A program made the translations under genes and the position numbers. Of a stretch of 33,283 nucleotides of DNA, positions 20,179 to 27,185 are shown piece by piece. The notes beneath the pieces are model-generated. The model was not told where the DNA came from. It saw only the letters and a program-made list of their open reading frames with translations, and did not search any database. Numbering within the stretch: the first letter of the stretch is position 1; each line of letters starts with the position of its first letter. The stretch is from an uncultured Croceicoccus sp. (GTDB lineage Bacteria > Pseudomonadota > Alphaproteobacteria > Sphingomonadales > Sphingomonadaceae): positions 1 through 33,283 of the forward strand of contig NZ_CANMCP010000016.1 in NCBI RefSeq assembly GCF_947496385.1. Reading direction: 5' to 3'.

Positions 20179-21843
20179 TCATGTCGTCGGCCTGACTTCC
20201 CCTAGACAAACGTCGAAGCCAAGAGGCAGAAGCAATTGCGATATCAGTCGCGCCTGACTTGCATGAAAGCTATCCGAAGGCGCCTTCACTTCGACAAAGC
20301 GGACCGTTTTGCCCTTCCACAGGGTTAAGTCGGGCCAGCCTGAGCGAAGATCATAGGGCGCGGTAGCAAAGACATTGGCAATCTCTGCAAGACGATCGCT
20401 ACCCAATGCCTCGAAGAGGCCGAAGACATGCTCTGCACGGACGCTGGGATAGAATGCGGGAGTATCGCCTGCGCTCGCTGAGATGATCTTCCAGTTGTCT
20501 TCGATCTGGGACCGGGTCGCTCGGGAAACCGAGGCGAGGAGTTGGTCTTTGGCAAATTTGTCCTGCGCGAAGGCGACATTCTGAGCATAGAGCGCTTCGA
20601 CAAACGTATCGGCGTGGCGCGGATCAAGCCTTGGGAATGATGCAGCCTTGATCAATGTGAGGATCAAGCCGCCTTCGGAGGCAGCACCTGACCATCCTTG
20701 TTCAAGATAGTGTTCGAGCGCGGCGAATTCGACCAATGACCAGTCGTGGACCGTGTAAAGTCTCCAGTCCTTGCCGGTGCCCTTGTCGAGCATGATCACA
20801 TCGTGCCCGATACCAAGACGTTCGGCCTGCTTTTCAAACCGACTCTGTCTCCCTCTCGCGCGTTTGACCTCCTGCTGCCCCGTTTCCTTGCGAAGCTTTT
20901 CAACCCTCCGGGCAACACCCACCTTTGGATCCAGCCTCAGCGCATCATCATAGGCCTTGATCGCCTTTTCCGGCTCGCCTTCTGTTTCATGCAATTCGCC
21001 CAGAAGACGAAACGCGCGGGCCTGGCTCCAAATCTCTCCCTCGCGCGCTGCGCGTCTCAGTCCAGCGGCGATGTCTTGCCGCATTTCGCGGTCAAGGGGA
21101 GCTAGCGATGACAGGACATCCTTGATCACGCCCAGATCACCAGCAGCGATACGGCGGCGCCGCCAGCCCTCTCGATCGACCATGGTGCCGGCAAGGTCGT
21201 AGATCGCTTGCTCGCCGTCCTTCAGGCAAATCACTACCCTGCCGGCATCACAATTCCAATTATAGCCATCGGCCCAACCGGTCTCGACTTCCCATCGCGC
21301 GATCTCCCGACCAGCTTCGAGGTCGAAAAGCATGTATCGACAACTGTCGTCGCTCCCTGGGGCATTGGCTGTCTGGCAGATTGCGTAACGACCGTCGGGA
21401 GACAGGCCGTTACTCATGAGATTGGCAGAAAACTGCTGCGCGATGAGCGTTTGGCCCTGTGAATCGCAGGCTACAAATCGACCGTGCAAGCCATGTCCGA
21501 ACATCCAGTCGTGAAGGATGAAAGTGCCGTTGTCGGCGACTTTCCCCTCCTGCGGTCGCTCAAGCTTGCCCGATTTCACGATACTCTCGTCGAAAAGCAG
21601 CGACCAGGAGCCGTGCCCGCTCTCGCGGTTTCCACCGCGCAAACCGTCAGGCGTTCGGTCGGTCCAGATCAGACGGAACCGGCGATTGGGCGACCTAGCT
21701 TGATGGCCAACAAAATCGAGTTGCGGAATGCTGACAAGACCGTGAGCGAACTCGTCGATCTCGAGCCTTTCCTTTGACCGCGCGACCTGCCCTGCCTGGT
21801 CGGGAGCACGCTTACCGAACAGGCGCTCGAAGAAGCCCGTCAT
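20179..21843 (-). CDS. VRR-NUC domain nuclease with WD-like and TPR regions
   Basis: 554 residues. The C-terminus is a VRR-NUC (PD-(D/E)xK superfamily) domain: GWPDL with Asp505, FVEVKAPSD with Glu518 and Lys520, then conserved Gln530 and a final GFDVCLGEV strand. A TPR-like helical hairpin covers about 271-310 (ending AYDDALRLDP). The N-terminal 60-230 has propeller-like repeats (NGLSPDGRYAICQT, LFDLEAGREIARWEVE). The ATG at 21843 overlaps the AbiEii stop by 4 bases, so it is translated as the third gene of the AbiE operon. It probably cuts DNA, with the N-terminal part sensing a partner. The 3' end is convergent with the S24 repressor, 24 bases away. Confidence 0.85.
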   Translation of the reverse strand: MTGFFERLFGKRAPDQAGQVARSKERLEIDEFAHGLVSIPQLDFVGHQARSPNRRFRLIWTDRTPDGLRGGNRESGHGSWSLLFDESIVKSGKLERPQEGKVADNGTFILHDWMFGHGLHGRFVACDSQGQTLIAQQFSANLMSNGLSPDGRYAICQTANAPGSDDSCRYMLFDLEAGREIARWEVETGWADGYNWNCDAGRVVICLKDGEQAIYDLAGTMVDREGWRRRRIAAGDLGVIKDVLSSLAPLDREMRQDIAAGLRRAAREGEIWSQARAFRLLGELHETEGEPEKAIKAYDDALRLDPKVGVARRVEKLRKETGQQEVKRARGRQSRFEKQAERLGIGHDVIMLDKGTGKDWRLYTVHDWSLVEFAALEHYLEQGWSGAASEGGLILTLIKAASFPRLDPRHADTFVEALYAQNVAFAQDKFAKDQLLASVSRATRSQIEDNWKIISASAGDTPAFYPSVRAEHVFGLFEALGSDRLAEIANVFATAPYDLRSGWPDLTLWKGKTVRFVEVKAPSDSFHASQARLISQLLLPLGFDVCLGEVRPTT

Positions 21844-22886
21844 GCCTGATCGTTAAGACGGTGCTGCAGGTCGGCCACCGCCTCTATCACTTCATCGAAG
21901 GGTGGCGGTTCGCCGAAGATCATGACACTCATTGCGCGATAGTCTTGGCGCAAATCATCGATCATCCCTTTCTCCGGACACAGAGCAAACGTTGGGGCAT
22001 GTGCCGACGCCAGGTCAAACGGCGGCCTGTTGAAGAACATGCGAGCATGGGCGACGCAGTCTTCGCCCAGCGGCTGGTCTGCCAGCGCTGCCTGGCCAGC
22101 GTCGGACTGGAGCAAACGGAACACATCGTAGTAATGGCGAGAAACACGTTGTCCGTTGCCGCGCAGTTGTCCTCGAATGTCGTACCAGCGCCGCAGTCCA
22201 TGCAAGATGACGACCTTGTCCCAGAAGGTACGCTCGGCATCGACAACGGTGACGTTTGGCACGGCGACGTCGATATCCGGCACGTCGGCATCGACATAGG
22301 GTGTAATGGTTCGCAGTGAATTTGGGTCGAGCGCAGATTTCGCCCCTGACTCGATCTTCACGGACTTGGCGATATAGGCGTCGGTCGGAGTTGCACTGGG
22401 ATAAACCAACAATAGTGTCTGTCGGTCTTGTGGGTCGGGCTTCACCTGTAGTGCGCCAGCTTCGATCCCCGTGCGCGCGCACGTTTCGTCGCATATTGCC
22501 GCAAGCCGTTCCAGCAATGACCCGTTGATAAAGGCCTCACAGGCTTCGCGGATTTCGTCGAGCGCGGCTTGCCGTTTCTTGCCACTGAGCGCTGCGAGTT
22601 CTTCGACCGAAGCCGGATGTCCCAGATCATCGCGGAAGACAGTCACATCGATGTCTTCGGAAAAGCGTTCGATCAAACCGAAAGCCTTCGACAGCGAAGT
22701 GCCTCCCTTGAACAGCAGCCGCGGCCCCTCTCCAAGCCCGTTGAACAGCGCATCGAGCGTCCAGCAGACCCAGAGATCCTTTTCTACGTTCTGCGGCGTC
22801 GTACCGAGCCTCTGCGCGGTTGCTGTATATAGCCCGCTGCGTGTTTCTGCATCGGCACGCAGGATTTCATCGAATGAAGGGTTCAC
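21840..22886 (-). CDS. AbiEii-family nucleotidyltransferase toxin
   Basis: 348 residues from a GTG start that overlaps the antitoxin stop by 4 bases (GTGA). Nucleotidyltransferase motifs are clear: LLFKGGTSLSKAFGLI (GGTSLSK at 61-67), then RFSEDIDVTVF with the catalytic pair Asp78/Asp80. The C-terminal MIDDLRQDYRAMSVMIFGEPPPFDEVI matches the AbiEii/AbiGii end motif. AbiEii toxins halt growth by transferring nucleotides to tRNA or another target and act in phage abortive infection. It pairs with the DUF6088/AbiEi protein upstream, and unusually is followed by a coupled nuclease gene. Confidence 0.93.
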   Translation of the reverse strand: MNPSFDEILRADAETRSGLYTATAQRLGTTPQNVEKDLWVCWTLDALFNGLGEGPRLLFKGGTSLSKAFGLIERFSEDIDVTVFRDDLGHPASVEELAALSGKKRQAALDEIREACEAFINGSLLERLAAICDETCARTGIEAGALQVKPDPQDRQTLLLVYPSATPTDAYIAKSVKIESGAKSALDPNSLRTITPYVDADVPDIDVAVPNVTVVDAERTFWDKVVILHGLRRWYDIRGQLRGNGQRVSRHYYDVFRLLQSDAGQAALADQPLGEDCVAHARMFFNRPPFDLASAHAPTFALCPEKGMIDDLRQDYRAMSVMIFGEPPPFDEVIEAVADLQHRLNDQA

Positions 22887-23536
22887 GAGAACGATGCCTG
22901 ATCGCGCAGCAGAGGGCGGAGGAGATCCTGCATCCAGGCGGGAAGCGTAGCGAAGCCATCCGTCAGATCAGCTCGCAACTTTTCGCCGTGCAAAGGATCG
23001 GCGAGGAGGCTGATCAGGCGATCTTGCCAATCTGCAACATCGTCACCAGGCATCGTATCGCGCAGCCAGTGCAGGGCCTGAACGATCCGCATCGCCGGGC
23101 GCCCGGCCCAATAGAGTTTACTCGCAGCCGTCTGCTTGAATTCGATGGTGAGATTGCCAAGCTTGATCAACTTCGGCCTTGCTTCGCTGTGAACGACAAT
23201 TTTCGCCGGCACTGCATTTGTAAGACCGAGGTCGTTTGCGGCCGTCATACCGTCAACCAGCACACGTATCTGATCGCGGCGCGCAACTGCCTCGACAATG
23301 GCACGATGATCGGGTGCACTTTTTTCCCTGGTCAGGCTGTTGATGCCCGGTTTGTCGTACAGTCCACGGTCAATCCTGCGCAGGTCTCCTGCCTTCACCA
23401 GGCGTTGAAGTGTCTTGTCGACAGCATCCCGGCTTGCGAGATCGAGGAAGTCCGATGGCGTCCAGACAGCATTCTTCGCCCCCTTTGCGATACGCTCGAG
23501 GATTTGCGACTTTAGCGGAGAGATTTCAACGCCCAT
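22883..23536 (-). CDS. DUF6088 / AbiEi-family antitoxin
   Basis: 217 residues from ATG 23536. Winged-helix N-terminus (SQILERIAKGAKNAVWTPSDFLDL, then VDKTLQRLVKAGDLRRIDRGLYDKP) and the conserved core DQIRVLVDGMTAANDLGLT, PAKIVVHSEAR and AASKLYWAGRPAMRIVQAL identify the DUF6088/AbiEi group. AbiEi proteins neutralise the partner toxin and repress their own operon by binding inverted repeats. Two such repeats lie directly upstream. A TTG start at 23566 would add ten residues, but these read through the nearer inverted repeat, so they are probably operator and not protein. No good ribosome site precedes 23536, so a near-leaderless transcript is possible. Confidence 0.88.
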   Translation of the reverse strand: MGVEISPLKSQILERIAKGAKNAVWTPSDFLDLASRDAVDKTLQRLVKAGDLRRIDRGLYDKPGINSLTREKSAPDHRAIVEAVARRDQIRVLVDGMTAANDLGLTNAVPAKIVVHSEARPKLIKLGNLTIEFKQTAASKLYWAGRPAMRIVQALHWLRDTMPGDDVADWQDRLISLLADPLHGEKLRADLTDGFATLPAWMQDLLRPLLRDQASFS

Positions 23537-23564
23537 GTCCGAAATATGTAGCATAATTTCGGAC
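23537..23564. promoter_or_regulatory. AbiEi operator-like inverted repeat, proximal copy
   Basis: Perfect 9-base arms GTCCGAAAT and ATTTCGGAC around a 10-base centre containing ATGTAG, ending directly at the antitoxin start codon. It shares arm and centre with the second copy 46 bases away. Paired inverted repeats bound by AbiEi are known from characterised AbiE loci. Confidence 0.8.
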
Positions 23565-23580
23565 AAAGTCGAGCCGGAAG

Positions 23581-23736: not shown

Positions 23737-24651
23737 TTAGCCCAACCATGAAGAGCCCGGAGTGCGACCAATCATCCGGTCGTAGGTATCTTCGCCCTCT
23801 TCCTCGTCATCGTTCTGAAAACGCCTGACGGGGGCAGGCCCGAGATGAAGCAGCGTATATGTCTTATCGAAACGCTCGGAAAGGAACGTCTCTTCAACGC
23901 AGGGCTCCTTCAGCCAAGTGAAGGCATTGTGTTCGATGCGCCCTTTGCCGTTATCGAGCAAATGCGTCTGCGCGGCCAACGAACCGGATGGCAAGGACAC
24001 AGGCGGCAGGTTTGCCGTCTTGATGAACGCACCCGTCCGCAATGCTTTTGGGCTCGACCTTGCCCAAAGCACATAACCATCTCTCGATACCACGAACATC
24101 GAACGCTTCTCGGTGAACTGTAGCCACCGCAGCGTCGCAGCGGAAAGAGACACCCCGTAGCGCTCGGCACAGGCACCAAGCTCATCGAAGCCGGGTTGGG
24201 CGCTGGGCGTAATCTGCCGCTGGAAGTCGTCCCTTGGCATAAGCAGGCTTGCAGCGAACTCGTTCGCCTGCTGCTCGATCTGGCCATACTCGCTGTCCCA
24301 TTTCGCCATATCTTCGGCGCTGCATTGCAAGCCATCGGGAAACTGGTGCCTGTGTACGAGATAGTGGCCAAACTCGTGAGCGAGGGTGAAGTTGATCCGG
24401 CCGGGGGACTTGATCTCCGAATTGTAGATGATGCCCCAGCCCTTCTTGCCAGGCGGGGCCTTGTAAAGCCCGCCTTCAAAGCGATCGAGGTCGCCACCTT
24501 TGATAAGCGTGACGGGGTCATTGGGGAAAACCTGATGCGAATAGTCCTTTGCCAGCGACTTCACATCAACGGGAAAGCGGTCGTCGCCGTCGCGGGCATT
24601 GAGAAGCAGGGTCAGGTCAATGGCCCAGCGTTGCGGCGACTTGTTATCCAT
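23737..24651 (-). CDS. ImmA/IrrE-family metallopeptidase
   Basis: 304 residues. The zinc-protease motif is FTLAHEFGHYLVH (His92, Glu93, His96) with the third ligand probably Glu126 in QIEQQANEFAASLLMP, the usual ImmA/IrrE signature. A C-terminal domain of about 130 residues follows and ends in an acidic DDEEEGED stretch. Such proteases cleave a partner XRE repressor on receiving a signal (ImmA-ImmR of ICEBs1, IrrE-DdrO). The start overlaps the XRE stop by one base, giving the standard pair. They face the ubiquitin-like operon across a shared control region, so induction of that operon by cleavage of the XRE protein is a reasonable model. Confidence 0.93.
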   Translation of the reverse strand: MDNKSPQRWAIDLTLLLNARDGDDRFPVDVKSLAKDYSHQVFPNDPVTLIKGGDLDRFEGGLYKAPPGKKGWGIIYNSEIKSPGRINFTLAHEFGHYLVHRHQFPDGLQCSAEDMAKWDSEYGQIEQQANEFAASLLMPRDDFQRQITPSAQPGFDELGACAERYGVSLSAATLRWLQFTEKRSMFVVSRDGYVLWARSSPKALRTGAFIKTANLPPVSLPSGSLAAQTHLLDNGKGRIEHNAFTWLKEPCVEETFLSERFDKTYTLLHLGPAPVRRFQNDDEEEGEDTYDRMIGRTPGSSWLG

Positions 24652-24974
24652 TATTCGCTGTCATCCCACATTTCGGCGATCTTGCGGATTTTCTCCCGCG
24701 TTTCGGCGGGCATACTTCTGTATTTCCTGTAGAATTGCGCATCGACGGCATCGACTTCGGCAACTTTGTTCTGGTCATCGAGAAGATACTCAATTGTCAC
24801 CCCCAGCTGTTCGGCAATCTTCGACAGCTTCTCTGCCGATGGGCGGGGTGGATTCTTGTTTTCCAGCTCCCAGATGTAGCTCTTGCTGGAGCCGGTCAGC
24901 TCCGCGAGCTTGTCGAGCGTCAGCTTCTTCTCCTTACGCAAGTCACGAATCTTGTCGCCTAAGACATTGGCCAT
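24651..24974 (-). CDS. XRE-family repressor paired with ImmA protease
   Basis: 107 residues. The N-terminal HTH_3 domain is textbook: LGDKIRDLRKEKKLTLDKLAELTG, SSKSYIWELENKN, PSAEKLSKIAEQLGVTIEYLL. The C-terminal 35 residues (AQFYRKYRSMPAETREKIRKIAEMWDDSE, here spanning the last third) are the extension usual in XRE partners of ImmA/IrrE proteases. GAGGAGGA precedes the ATG. It probably represses its own promoter and the divergent ubiquitin-like operon through the repeated sites at 24994 and 25050. Confidence 0.93.
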   Translation of the reverse strand: MANVLGDKIRDLRKEKKLTLDKLAELTGSSKSYIWELENKNPPRPSAEKLSKIAEQLGVTIEYLLDDQNKVAEVDAVDAQFYRKYRSMPAETREKIRKIAEMWDDSE

Positions 24975-25107
24975 AAGCGGTCCTCCTCAAAAAGTTCGGT
25001 GTAGGCATACAATAACCTCTTGACTTCCGATTTTCAAGCAATATATGATGTTCGGAGTAGGCGCACTTTTTTTGCGTCATAAATGTTAAACAATGAGGTA
25101 TCCGCCA
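24975..25107. promoter_or_regulatory. Divergent promoters and repeated operator between XRE/ImmA and Ubl operons
   Basis: Plus strand: TTGACT (25020-25025), 18 bases, TATGAT (25044-25049), for the DUF2188-Ubl operon. Minus strand: TTGAAA (25037-25032), 17 bases, TATTGT (25014-25009), for the XRE-ImmA genes. A 17-base site is repeated in the same orientation with 14 matches: 24994-25010 and 25050-25066. Each copy overlaps or abuts the -10/start region of one promoter. Copy 1 contains a near-palindrome TGTAGGCATACA (10 of 12 positions symmetric). This is the layout of a repressor controlling both operons. Confidence 0.7.
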
Positions 25108-25347
25108 ATGAGCAAAGGCCCGAAAAGCCACCACGTGGTCCCGAATCCCAACGGGGGCTGGGATGTAAAGAAGGGCGGCGCCAGCCGCGCCAGCAGCCAC
25201 CACAGCACGAAACGCGAAGCCATCGATCGCGGCCGCGAAATCAGCCGCAATCAAAGCACCGAGTTTCGCATCCATAACCAGGACGGAAAGATCGCCCGCA
25301 GCGATAGCCACGGCAACGATCCCTGCCCGCCTAAAGACAAGAAATAG
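25108..25347 (+). CDS. DUF2188-like small protein, first gene of Ubl operon
   Basis: 79 residues from ATG 25108; GAGG at 25095-25098 supports this start over the ATG at 25093. The sequence SHHVVPNPNGGWDVKKGGASRASSHHSTKREAIDRGREISRN followed by EFRIHNQDGKIARSDSHGNDP is the DUF2188 pattern: a small two-strand/helix fold of unknown function. Very polar, rich in His, Lys and Asn, with no membrane or catalytic motif. It ends 9 bases before the ubiquitin-like gene, whose ribosome site overlaps its stop codon. Whether it is a functional part of the conjugation system, for example a substrate or regulator, is unknown. Confidence 0.85.
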   Translation: MSKGPKSHHVVPNPNGGWDVKKGGASRASSHHSTKREAIDRGREISRNQSTEFRIHNQDGKIARSDSHGNDPCPPKDKK

Positions 25348-25356
25348 GAGGTTCGC

Positions 25357-25620
25357 ATGACGAACGACAAAGACAAGAAAGAGAAGGAAACCACGGTCAT
25401 CGTGAACGGTCGCGAGAAGGTCGTGAACGGCAAAGAAATCTGCTTCGACGAACTGGTGAAGCTGGCTTTCGACAATCCGCCGACCGGCCAGAACATCTGC
25501 TTCACGATCACCTACCGCAAGGCGATGGGCAACAAGCCCGAAGGCACTCTTGCCGAAGGCGAATGCGTGAAGGTCAAGAAGGGAACTATCTTCAATGTTA
25601 CCGCAACTGATAAGTCGTAG
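25357..25620 (+). CDS. Ubiquitin-like protein, multiubiquitin family (single domain)
   Basis: 87 residues, preceded by AGGAGG. After a charged N-terminal tail (1-11), one ubiquitin-like domain of the multiubiquitin type runs to the end: TTVIVNGREKVVNGKEICFDELVKLAF, then ICFTITYRKAMG, LAEGECVKVKKGTIFNVT. Family members often carry several repeats; this has one. The C-terminus is TATDKS, without a terminal Gly-Gly, so it must be trimmed or used in a non-standard way. Its last 26 bases overlap the E1-like gene. Expected role: a small protein modifier activated by that enzyme. Confidence 0.9.
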   Translation: MTNDKDKKEKETTVIVNGREKVVNGKEICFDELVKLAFDNPPTGQNICFTITYRKAMGNKPEGTLAEGECVKVKKGTIFNVTATDKS

Positions 25621-26764
25621 CGACGATCTGAAGCGGCTGTTTGATGATGGCTATGAGCTGTCCATCGTGGGTGGGCAGCTCGTAGTCAGCAACATTCCCT
25701 ATGTTGCGGCGGACAAGACCGTGAAGCGCGCCGCGCTGGTAAGCGAGCTGCGCCTGTCCGATGACACGACGCTGGCACCAAAAACCCATGTGATGAAATT
25801 CACCGGCGACCATCCTTGCGACAAGAATGGCAAGGAGCTGGCATACATGAAGCACAGCATCAAGAACGAAGTGATTGGCGACGGGAATACCGTCACACGT
25901 TCGTTCTCATGCAAGCCGACCACAGGCCCCTACCCTGACTATTATGCGAAGGTAACGACCTACGCCGAGATGATATCGGTTCATGCGCAGCAGCTTGAGC
26001 CAGGAGCAACGGGGCGCACTCATGCTGTGACCCAGATTGATGAACCCGACAGTCCCTTCCGCTACCTCGACAATGCCTCCGGCCTCGCTGGTATTACCGA
26101 CATGGCGCAGCGCGTTGCTGGTAAGAAGGTGGGCATTGTCGGCCTTGGAGGAAGCGGTTCCTTCGTCCTCGACCTGATTGCCAAGAGCTGGGTGGCCGAG
26201 ATCCACCTCTATGATGGCGACGACCTTATTCAGCACAACGCTTTCCGCTGCCCTGGCGCGGTATCGGCTGAGACGTTGCGTGACAGGCCGATGAAGGCCG
26301 ATCATTACGCAGCCATCTATGACGTTTTCCGCAAGGGCGTCGTGCCCCACCCCTATTACATCACCGAAGCCAATCTGGCCGAACTGGACGAACTCGACTT
26401 CATCTTCATCTGCGTCGACAAGGGAAGCGCGAAGGAGAAGATCGTCGACCATCTGGAAGCAACGGGAAAGAGCTTCATCGATGTCGGCATGGGCGTCGAA
26501 ATCGCCGACGGGAAGCTGCTTGGCGTGGTCCGCACCAGCACCAGCACGCCCGAGGACCGCGACACGTTGCGGAAGTTCGTCCGGTTCGGCGATGGCGAGG
26601 AAGATGCCGCCTACACGAAAAATGTGCAGATTGCGGAACTTAACGCGCTCAACGCGTGCCTTGCCGTGATAAAATGGAAAAAACTGAACGGGATTTATCT
26701 CGACCTCGAAGGCGAGATGAACGCGAACTACACAATAGACGGGAACCACATGTCGAATGAATAA
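25595..26764 (+). CDS. ThiF/E1-like adenylyltransferase with N-terminal E2-like-position domain
   Basis: 389 residues. Residues 1-135 form a domain (LKRLFDDGYELSIVGGQLVVSNIPYV, HVMKFTGDHPCDKNG) that I believe is DUF6791, found at the N-terminus of such ThiF proteins; its role is unknown to me. Residues 165-360 are the E1/ThiF fold: GIVGLGGSGS nucleotide loop (183-189), YDGDD (207-210) and N215/R218 in HNAFR. The loop where E1 and MoeB enzymes place their catalytic Cys reads TSTSTPE (314-320) with no Cys; remaining cysteines are at 75, 106, 219, 273 and 354. It should adenylate the ubiquitin-like protein's C-terminus. Overlaps neighbours on both sides. Confidence 0.9.
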   Translation: MLPQLISRSDDLKRLFDDGYELSIVGGQLVVSNIPYVAADKTVKRAALVSELRLSDDTTLAPKTHVMKFTGDHPCDKNGKELAYMKHSIKNEVIGDGNTVTRSFSCKPTTGPYPDYYAKVTTYAEMISVHAQQLEPGATGRTHAVTQIDEPDSPFRYLDNASGLAGITDMAQRVAGKKVGIVGLGGSGSFVLDLIAKSWVAEIHLYDGDDLIQHNAFRCPGAVSAETLRDRPMKADHYAAIYDVFRKGVVPHPYYITEANLAELDELDFIFICVDKGSAKEKIVDHLEATGKSFIDVGMGVEIADGKLLGVVRTSTSTPEDRDTLRKFVRFGDGEEDAAYTKNVQIAELNALNACLAVIKWKKLNGIYLDLEGEMNANYTIDGNHMSNE

Positions 26765-27185
26765 GCGCGCCCACCTCAGTCCAGAATTTGTAGACACCAT
26801 TCCAGCGACAATCGAACAAGGCAAAATCTACATCTCGATTGATTTTGCGACGGCTATTCATAGCTGCGCCTGCGGGTGCGGGATGGAGGTGGTCACCCCC
26901 TTCTCGCCGACCGACTGGAAGCTGGTGTTCGACGGAGTTTCCATTTCGCTGTCACCATCAATCGGGAACTGGAGCTTCCCGTGCCGTTCGCATTACTGGA
27001 TCAGGCAGAATCAGGTCCACTGGGCGGGAGACTGGACCGACGAAGAGATTAACGCCGGACGCGCGAATGATCGCAGAAGCAAGGAGCATCACTACGGAAT
27101 CGGCACCCTAAGTAGCACATCAAGCAAGAAGACGCTGAAAAAGCCGGGGTTCTGGAAGCGTTGGTTCGGCTGGCTAATAAATTGA
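26757..27185 (+). CDS. DUF6527-family protein of ubiquitin-like operon
   Basis: 142 residues. Key features: HSCACGCG with Cys37, 39, 41 and His35; SISLSPSIGNW (62-72); CRSHYWIRQNQVHW with Cys76, Ser78 and His79. This matches DUF6527, a family regularly next to multiubiquitin and E1-like genes. The cysteines probably hold a metal. The invariant-looking Ser/His residues suggest a catalytic site; I recall reports of DUF6527 proteins as peptidases for the ubiquitin-like partner but cannot verify them here. The C-terminus is basic and aromatic (KKPGFWKRWFGWL). The start overlaps the E1-like gene by 8 bases. Last gene of the operon. Confidence 0.85.
   Translation: MNKRAHLSPEFVDTIPATIEQGKIYISIDFATAIHSCACGCGMEVVTPFSPTDWKLVFDGVSISLSPSIGNWSFPCRSHYWIRQNQVHWAGDWTDEEINAGRANDRRSKEHHYGIGTLSSTSSKKTLKKPGFWKRWFGWLIN

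Follow-up and report, generated by a model that had tools for sequence, protein, structure and literature searches.

We read the operon described here as a real and conserved sister class of Bub that has neither an E2 nor a JAB domain and is carried on a mobile element. It lies in the window, the whole stretch of 33,283 nucleotides that was analysed, and encodes a DUF2188 protein, a ubiquitin-like protein (Ubl), an E1-like enzyme (E1) and a DUF6527 protein. With a probability of about 0.6, it is a DNA-damage-inducible ubiquitin-like conjugation operon, sister to Bub, on an F-type conjugative element. The gene content, its conservation, the promoter repeats, the E1 fold, the alignment of a tyrosine, the DUF6527 residues and the absence of PF14462 were observed directly. 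The first-pass annotation of this DNA overlooked the divergent capH and capP genes, the repeats at the promoter and how closely the operon is related to Bub.

Gene content of the operon

The first-pass annotation had described four compact genes on the plus strand at 25108-27185, and both the open reading frames and the Pfam families agree with this. HMM searches matched PF14452, ThiF, DUF6791, DUF6527 and DUF2188 in the window (Table 1). In E1, PF20590 (DUF6791) covers residues 10-159 (6.6e-49) and ThiF residues 171-312 (5.9e-8), and the protein matched NCBIfam NF004805 with 486 bits, above the cut-off. The Ubl consists of one Multi_ubiq domain in 87 residues. The Ubl and E1 reading frames overlap by 26 nt and those of E1 and DUF6527 by 8 nt; the 26-nt overlap of the Ubl tail with the E1 start is kept in 77 of the 79 aligned loci. 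For the DUF2188 gene an alternative in-frame ATG is found at 25093, and since the GAGGT at 25095-25099 fits the start at 25108, just before which it lies, 25108 is most likely the start. The description of the set as minimal and lacking a recognisable E2 also held: a profile search of the whole genome of the window with PF14462 (Prok-E2_E) did not find this E2.

Table 1. Features of the operon and of its control region in the window
Feature	Coordinates	Strand	Evidence
capP-like zinc metallopeptidase, IrrE/M78, HEFGH	23737-24651	-	PADLOC capP 6.3e-69; PF06114 8.3e-17
capH-like HTH repressor, divergent from the operon	24651-24974	-	PADLOC capH 2.2e-31; HTH_19 3.4e-14
Operator-like repeat, copy 1, GTTCGGTGTAGGCATAC	24994-25010	+	exact pattern match
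Sigma-70-like operon promoter, TTGACT-18-TATGAT	25020-25049	+	10/12 positions
Operator-like repeat, copy 2, immediately downstream of the -10 box	25050-25066	+	exact pattern match
DUF2188 small protein	25108-25347	+	PF09954 5.4e-24; PADLOC PDC-S16 1.5e-37
Single-domain ubiquitin-like protein (Ubl), C-terminus ...TATDKS	25357-25620	+	PF14452 1.6e-19
E1-like enzyme, N-terminal DUF6791 then ThiF domain	25595-26764	+	PF20590, ThiF, NF004805
DUF6527 protein, beta-rich, likely zinc site C37/C41/C76/H79	26757-27185	+	PF20137 1.8e-25

Conservation of the gene set

Conservation was examined in the best 80 of at least 578 relatives, a sample hence biased to close relatives. Both Ubl and DUF6527 were present within 4 kb of E1 in all 80 genome loci, and Ubl, E1 and DUF6527 were consecutive in 78 of them. 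The two exceptions, L056 and L068, carried extra ORFs between E1 and DUF6527, one of 654 aa in L068. DUF2188 was found within 4 kb in 10 of these 80 loci, directly upstream of Ubl in nine and downstream of DUF6527 in one. Its background of 34 matches in 200 genomes gives an estimated chance share of well under one of 80, and DUF2188 is a recurrent minority partner. The earlier proposal that the four genes are conserved together thus stands for Ubl, E1 and DUF6527 and only in part for DUF2188, which is the first gene in those nine loci and is missing within 4 kb in 70. The alignments used for residue conservation, A4 and A5, comprise 79 rows each of 82 (the window and L012-L092), A4 without L026, L050 and L056 and A5 without L026, L028 and L050; L152, which has no annotation, was left out.

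In a sample of 398 genomes from the phylum, all eight genomes with DUF6791 and all five with PF14462 above the cut-off had DUF6527 on the same contig, and these two groups did not overlap. DUF6527 occurred in 19 genomes of this sample, six of which had neither DUF6791 nor PF14462 above the cut-off; the three genomes with PF14462 below the cut-off gave no DUF6527 match.

Several neighbours were noted in individual loci. Upstream of Ubl, the annotation gives a UvrD-helicase or uvrD gene (~1,130 aa) in L008, L010 and L011 and in the Bub-class locus L148; an IS5 transposase separates it from Ubl in L008, where tnsA is nearby, and tnsD is nearby in L010. ORFs of ~1,130-1,170 aa occupy the uvrD place upstream of Ubl in L042, L079, L080, L128, L129 and L133. 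The viral contig L094 carried a divergent copy of the core and, on the other strand, one more Ubl-like ORF.

E1 and its DUF6791 domain

By sequence profile, the best solved match of E1 was Citrobacter BubCD (2.3e-9; the next, 1.1e-6). BubCD was also the best Foldseek match (6.5e-13), and ThiF, MoeB, MccB, PaaA and Cap2 of type II CBASS (7to3) were among the others. VIA-align gave 24.1 for BubCD vs 23.2 for ThiF, a tie. Y340 of E1 was invariant in 79/79 rows. When E1 was aligned by hhalign with 7 of 15 Bub-type E1s (the motif filter missed the other 8) at a loose realignment setting, Y340 fell on a Tyr conserved in all seven (E 7.8e-13). In L143 this Tyr is residue 370 and the JAB Asp is residue 104, which are the positions of the BubCD PDB mutants Y370F and D104A; judging from the mutant name, the Tyr aligned with Y340 is probably catalytic. 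Bub runs via oxyester intermediates. The tyrosine chemistry put forward below for the window draws on the BubCD alignment, the PDB mutant name and the Bub literature.

In DUF6791, H65 and S105 were invariant and C75 was present in 77 of 79 rows. Comparison of DUF6791 with the Bub E2 by hhalign was not significant (P 0.18, 0.059 and 0.076 with 3, 14 and 19 E2 domains, respectively); among the controls of the 19-E2 set-up, the reversed E2 gave P 0.11, DUF2188 0.025 and the rest 0.18-0.82. A comparison with the JAB profile gave P 0.6, and a Pfam search with DUF6791 returned nothing but PF20590 above chance. Because homology to the Bub E2 was not detectable, it is from the gene content and the replacement pattern that we infer an E2-like role for DUF6791.

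Ubl, DUF6527 and DUF2188

Ser is the last residue of the Ubl in 92 of 93 loci and is encoded by varied codons. The 93 comprise the window and 10 plasmid, 80 genome and 2 viral loci, near copies being included; L001, which duplicates the window, and L093, L095 and L096 are not counted. In contrast, three of four stand-alone Bub-type Ubls that were compared end in Gly (TTTEG), the fourth ending TTEGGAE with a short extension after Gly-Gly. The window Ubl aligned with the last 79 residues of the ZDHYS365 multi-ubiquitin protein (PDB 9cd2; 1.4e-10), a protein of 222 residues compared with a single domain in the window. Since 9cd2 also ends TDKS, this class of Ubl, or one near it, is already in structural work. 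The overlap of the Ubl tail with the E1 start may constrain part of this tail, and a JAB protease may be dispensable since the Ubl already ends where needed.

The DUF6527 protein of the window shares a C-x3-C/C-x2-H pattern with the Bub-type DUF6527 proteins, and within the E2-less class some of its C, S and H residues are fully conserved. The AF2 model has a mean pLDDT of 87.9, and zinc binding is predicted from the sequence. In the DUF6527 of Rhizobium phaseoli (L142:7112-7480) several otherwise common Cys residues are missing, and this protein is either degenerate or divergent.

DUF2188 was also seen beside E2-type Bub operons, upstream in L142 of R. phaseoli and downstream in L158 of Bradyrhizobium quebecense, so it can accompany either class. 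Literature searches for DUF6527, DUF6791, PDC-S16 and Prok-E2_E returned no matches, and the matches for DUF2188 were unrelated by title.

Promoter and control region

A promoter scan found two promoter-like sites in the region against 1.1 expected, which is not significant alone. The promoter position is conserved across 12 aligned intergenic regions, which are those of the window and of 11 relatives with closely similar capH and include several near copies. In all 12 regions a repeat built on a GTTCGG core precedes the -35 box, and in 11 of them one follows the -10 box, the copy there being degenerate in L021. In the window the repeat has two exact matches against 0.08 expected (up to two mismatches allowed); the pattern was drawn from the same aligned regions, and the count shows only the absence of a third site in the window. 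Three of the 12 repeat-bearing regions (L005, L041 and L057) are without DUF2188, which indicates that the repeats belong to capH and the promoter.

An HTH repressor and an M78 peptidase with HExxH are thus present beside the operon promoter as in the CapH-CapP type, and CapH-CapP control of the operon is strongly suggested at the level of sequence. Cleavage of CapH by ssDNA-binding CapP, with derepression, is reported for other CapH-CapP pairs in PMC13373217, and by analogy with those pairs CapP would cleave CapH in the window. Narrow models placed capP no more than 4 kb away in 29 of the 80 loci and capH in 16 (best 80 of at least 578 relatives). Among 107 divergent upstream proteins of relatives, taken from 123 upstream proteins, PADLOC capP matched 36, Pfam M78 36 and WYL one.

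Setting in an F-type transfer region

As the first-pass annotation had proposed, the operon is inside a tra locus; it lies between traG and the relaxase and traD genes of an F-type element. Nine of ten scanned transfer-region proteins were matched and one gave no match: TraE, TraK, a TrbI/TraB-type protein, TraC, TraU, TraN, TraH and TraG upstream on the plus strand and TraD downstream on the minus strand, with a TrwC relaxase adjoining. Between traG and the relaxase lie, besides the operon, a TPR/VRR-NUC gene, AbiEii, AbiEi, capP and capH. The proposed presence of other defence genes nearby was borne out by AbiEi and AbiEii, matched by both Pfam and PADLOC. They form a type IV toxin-antitoxin pair at 21840-23566 (PADLOC 7.5e-101 and 8.8e-103). 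Beside AbiEii, the TPR and VRR-NUC protein (20179-21843, minus strand), without a PADLOC match, is possibly more defence-type cargo.

Plasmids of Sphingobium, Novosphingobium, Sphingomonas and Sphingopyxis have transfer regions that resemble the first 20 kb of the window; there are 38 such records, each covering less than 80% of the query. One of these related plasmids, pCAR3, has a PrlF/YhaV toxin-antitoxin pair and some small genes between traG and mobF, and from this single comparison the traG-relaxase interval would seem to be a place for cargo. Another operon in such surroundings is of the Bub type and lies ~2.3 kb from the transfer gene trhU on a Citrobacter koseri IncHI2A plasmid (L161).

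Relation to Bub and other known systems

Bub is the closest known system (PDB 9ea4, 9ea5, 9ea8, 9eae and 9eav; parts BubA, BubB and BubCD). Both have a Ubl of the multiubiquitin family, an E1 of matching fold with a Tyr at the aligned site (Y340 in the window, Y370 in BubCD) and a downstream DUF6527, on the Bub side as seen in the PF14462 loci examined here. HTH and ImmA/IrrE regulators occur in several Bub loci, and DUF2188 is occasional. Unlike Bub, the window has neither the PF14462 E2 nor JAB, and DUF6791 occupies the E1 N-terminus instead. Prok-JAB had one match above the cut-off and two weaker ones in the genome of the window, all on other contigs and without linkage to the operon. Two of the 15 Bub-type E1s (L144 and L151) showed no HxHP JAB motif, so some Bub operons may lack JAB as well. 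By annotation, the row in L142 of R. phaseoli runs HTH, ImmA/IrrE, DUF2188, Ubl, E2, ThiF and DUF6527, with a JAB motif in the ThiF protein; it is the set of the window with an E2 and a JAB-ThiF protein replacing DUF6791-ThiF.

Bil and type II CBASS are defence operons with an E1-like enzyme and Ubl-type chemistry. The likeness of the window to these systems, including Cap2 (E2-E1), consists of weak PADLOC E1-E2 matches (best 7.3e-7) that cover the ThiF part only. A PADLOC scan of nine window proteins found no E2 domain, CD-NTase or effector. According to PMC13373217, CapH-CapP or CapW accompanies 219 of 544 Bub operons, phage protection was not shown for Bub, and a role in stress responses is possible.

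Discussion

In the proposed mechanism, CapH would repress the promoter via the two repeats, and upon DNA damage or the arrival of invading ssDNA, CapP would cleave CapH and the operon would be expressed. E1 would then adenylate the C-terminal Ser carboxylate of Ubl, and Ubl would pass to Tyr340 of E1 as an oxyester, not as a cysteine thioester. DUF6791, in place of the Bub E2 and at the position of JAB in BubCD, would hand Ubl to the target, and DUF6527, common to Bub, would help as a ligase-like or target-binding factor. DUF2188 would be an optional accessory. We infer each chemical step, the operation of the switch and the biological function from the comparisons above. The enzymatic core, a tagging pathway without E2, JAB protease or a conserved catalytic Cys in the E1 domain, in which a Ser-ended modifier and a Tyr-using E1 are joined by DUF6791 (H65, S105), which would carry out the last transfer assisted by DUF6527, is a tentative proposal to which we give less than even odds.

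The readings that compete with the conjugation operon are not all mutually exclusive with it, and the probabilities that we attach to them do not sum to 1. The Ubl activated by E1 could be a ThiS/MoaD-like carrier or part of a peptide-modifying set, the outcome being a small product or a modified peptide and not protein conjugates. The structures of ThiF, MoeB, MccB and PaaA match E1, with ThiF within the VIA tie, the PF14462 E2 is missing from the genome, and some E1-like enzymes, such as MccB, do modify peptides. We nevertheless consider this improbable: BubCD is the best match by both profile and Foldseek, DUF6527 is common to loci with an E2, and the Ubl ends in Ser without Gly-Gly, whereas sulfur carriers end in Gly-Gly. 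It also seems rather unlikely that, within the same pathway, DUF6791 serves to recognise targets or to regulate, and that Ubl moves from E1 to the target directly or via DUF6527 as a carrier. The lack of significant homology between DUF6791 and E2 is consistent with such a recognition role, as is the full conservation of C, S and H in the DUF6527 of the E2-less class with a carrier role; the invariance of H65 and S105 and the near invariance of C75 (77/79) in DUF6791 argue against the former, and the presence of DUF6527 beside the PF14462 E2 too indicates that it does not simply replace that E2.

A different question is what the pathway is for. It may be real and serve as a general DNA-damage stress response of the host or of the element instead of defence, a reading that we regard as quite conceivable while not favouring it. 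The capH-capP-like control region fits such a response, and PMC13373217 considers a stress role for Bub, for which it reports no demonstrated phage protection. The AbiE neighbours, the PADLOC candidate family (PDC-S16) for DUF2188 and the mobile-element setting are circumstantial points against it. For an anti-phage or anti-plasmid role of the conjugation operon there are hints, namely AbiE, the capH-capP-like switch and the PADLOC candidate family for DUF2188.

If the conjugation reading is true, the operon would be a very small ubiquitin-type conjugation pathway, with one modifier, one fused enzyme and one partner, and a simple test case for how ubiquitin-like tagging pathways work. Comparison of the R. 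phaseoli locus with the window, in the same gene setting, would separate the constant parts (Ubl, E1 and DUF6527) from the swappable ones (E2 and JAB vs DUF6791), and candidate residues are named in DUF6791 and DUF6527, neither of which has a known function. The operon would also link ubiquitin-like conjugation on a transfer element to a switch of the ssDNA-responding kind, and an anti-phage or anti-plasmid role would become directly testable.
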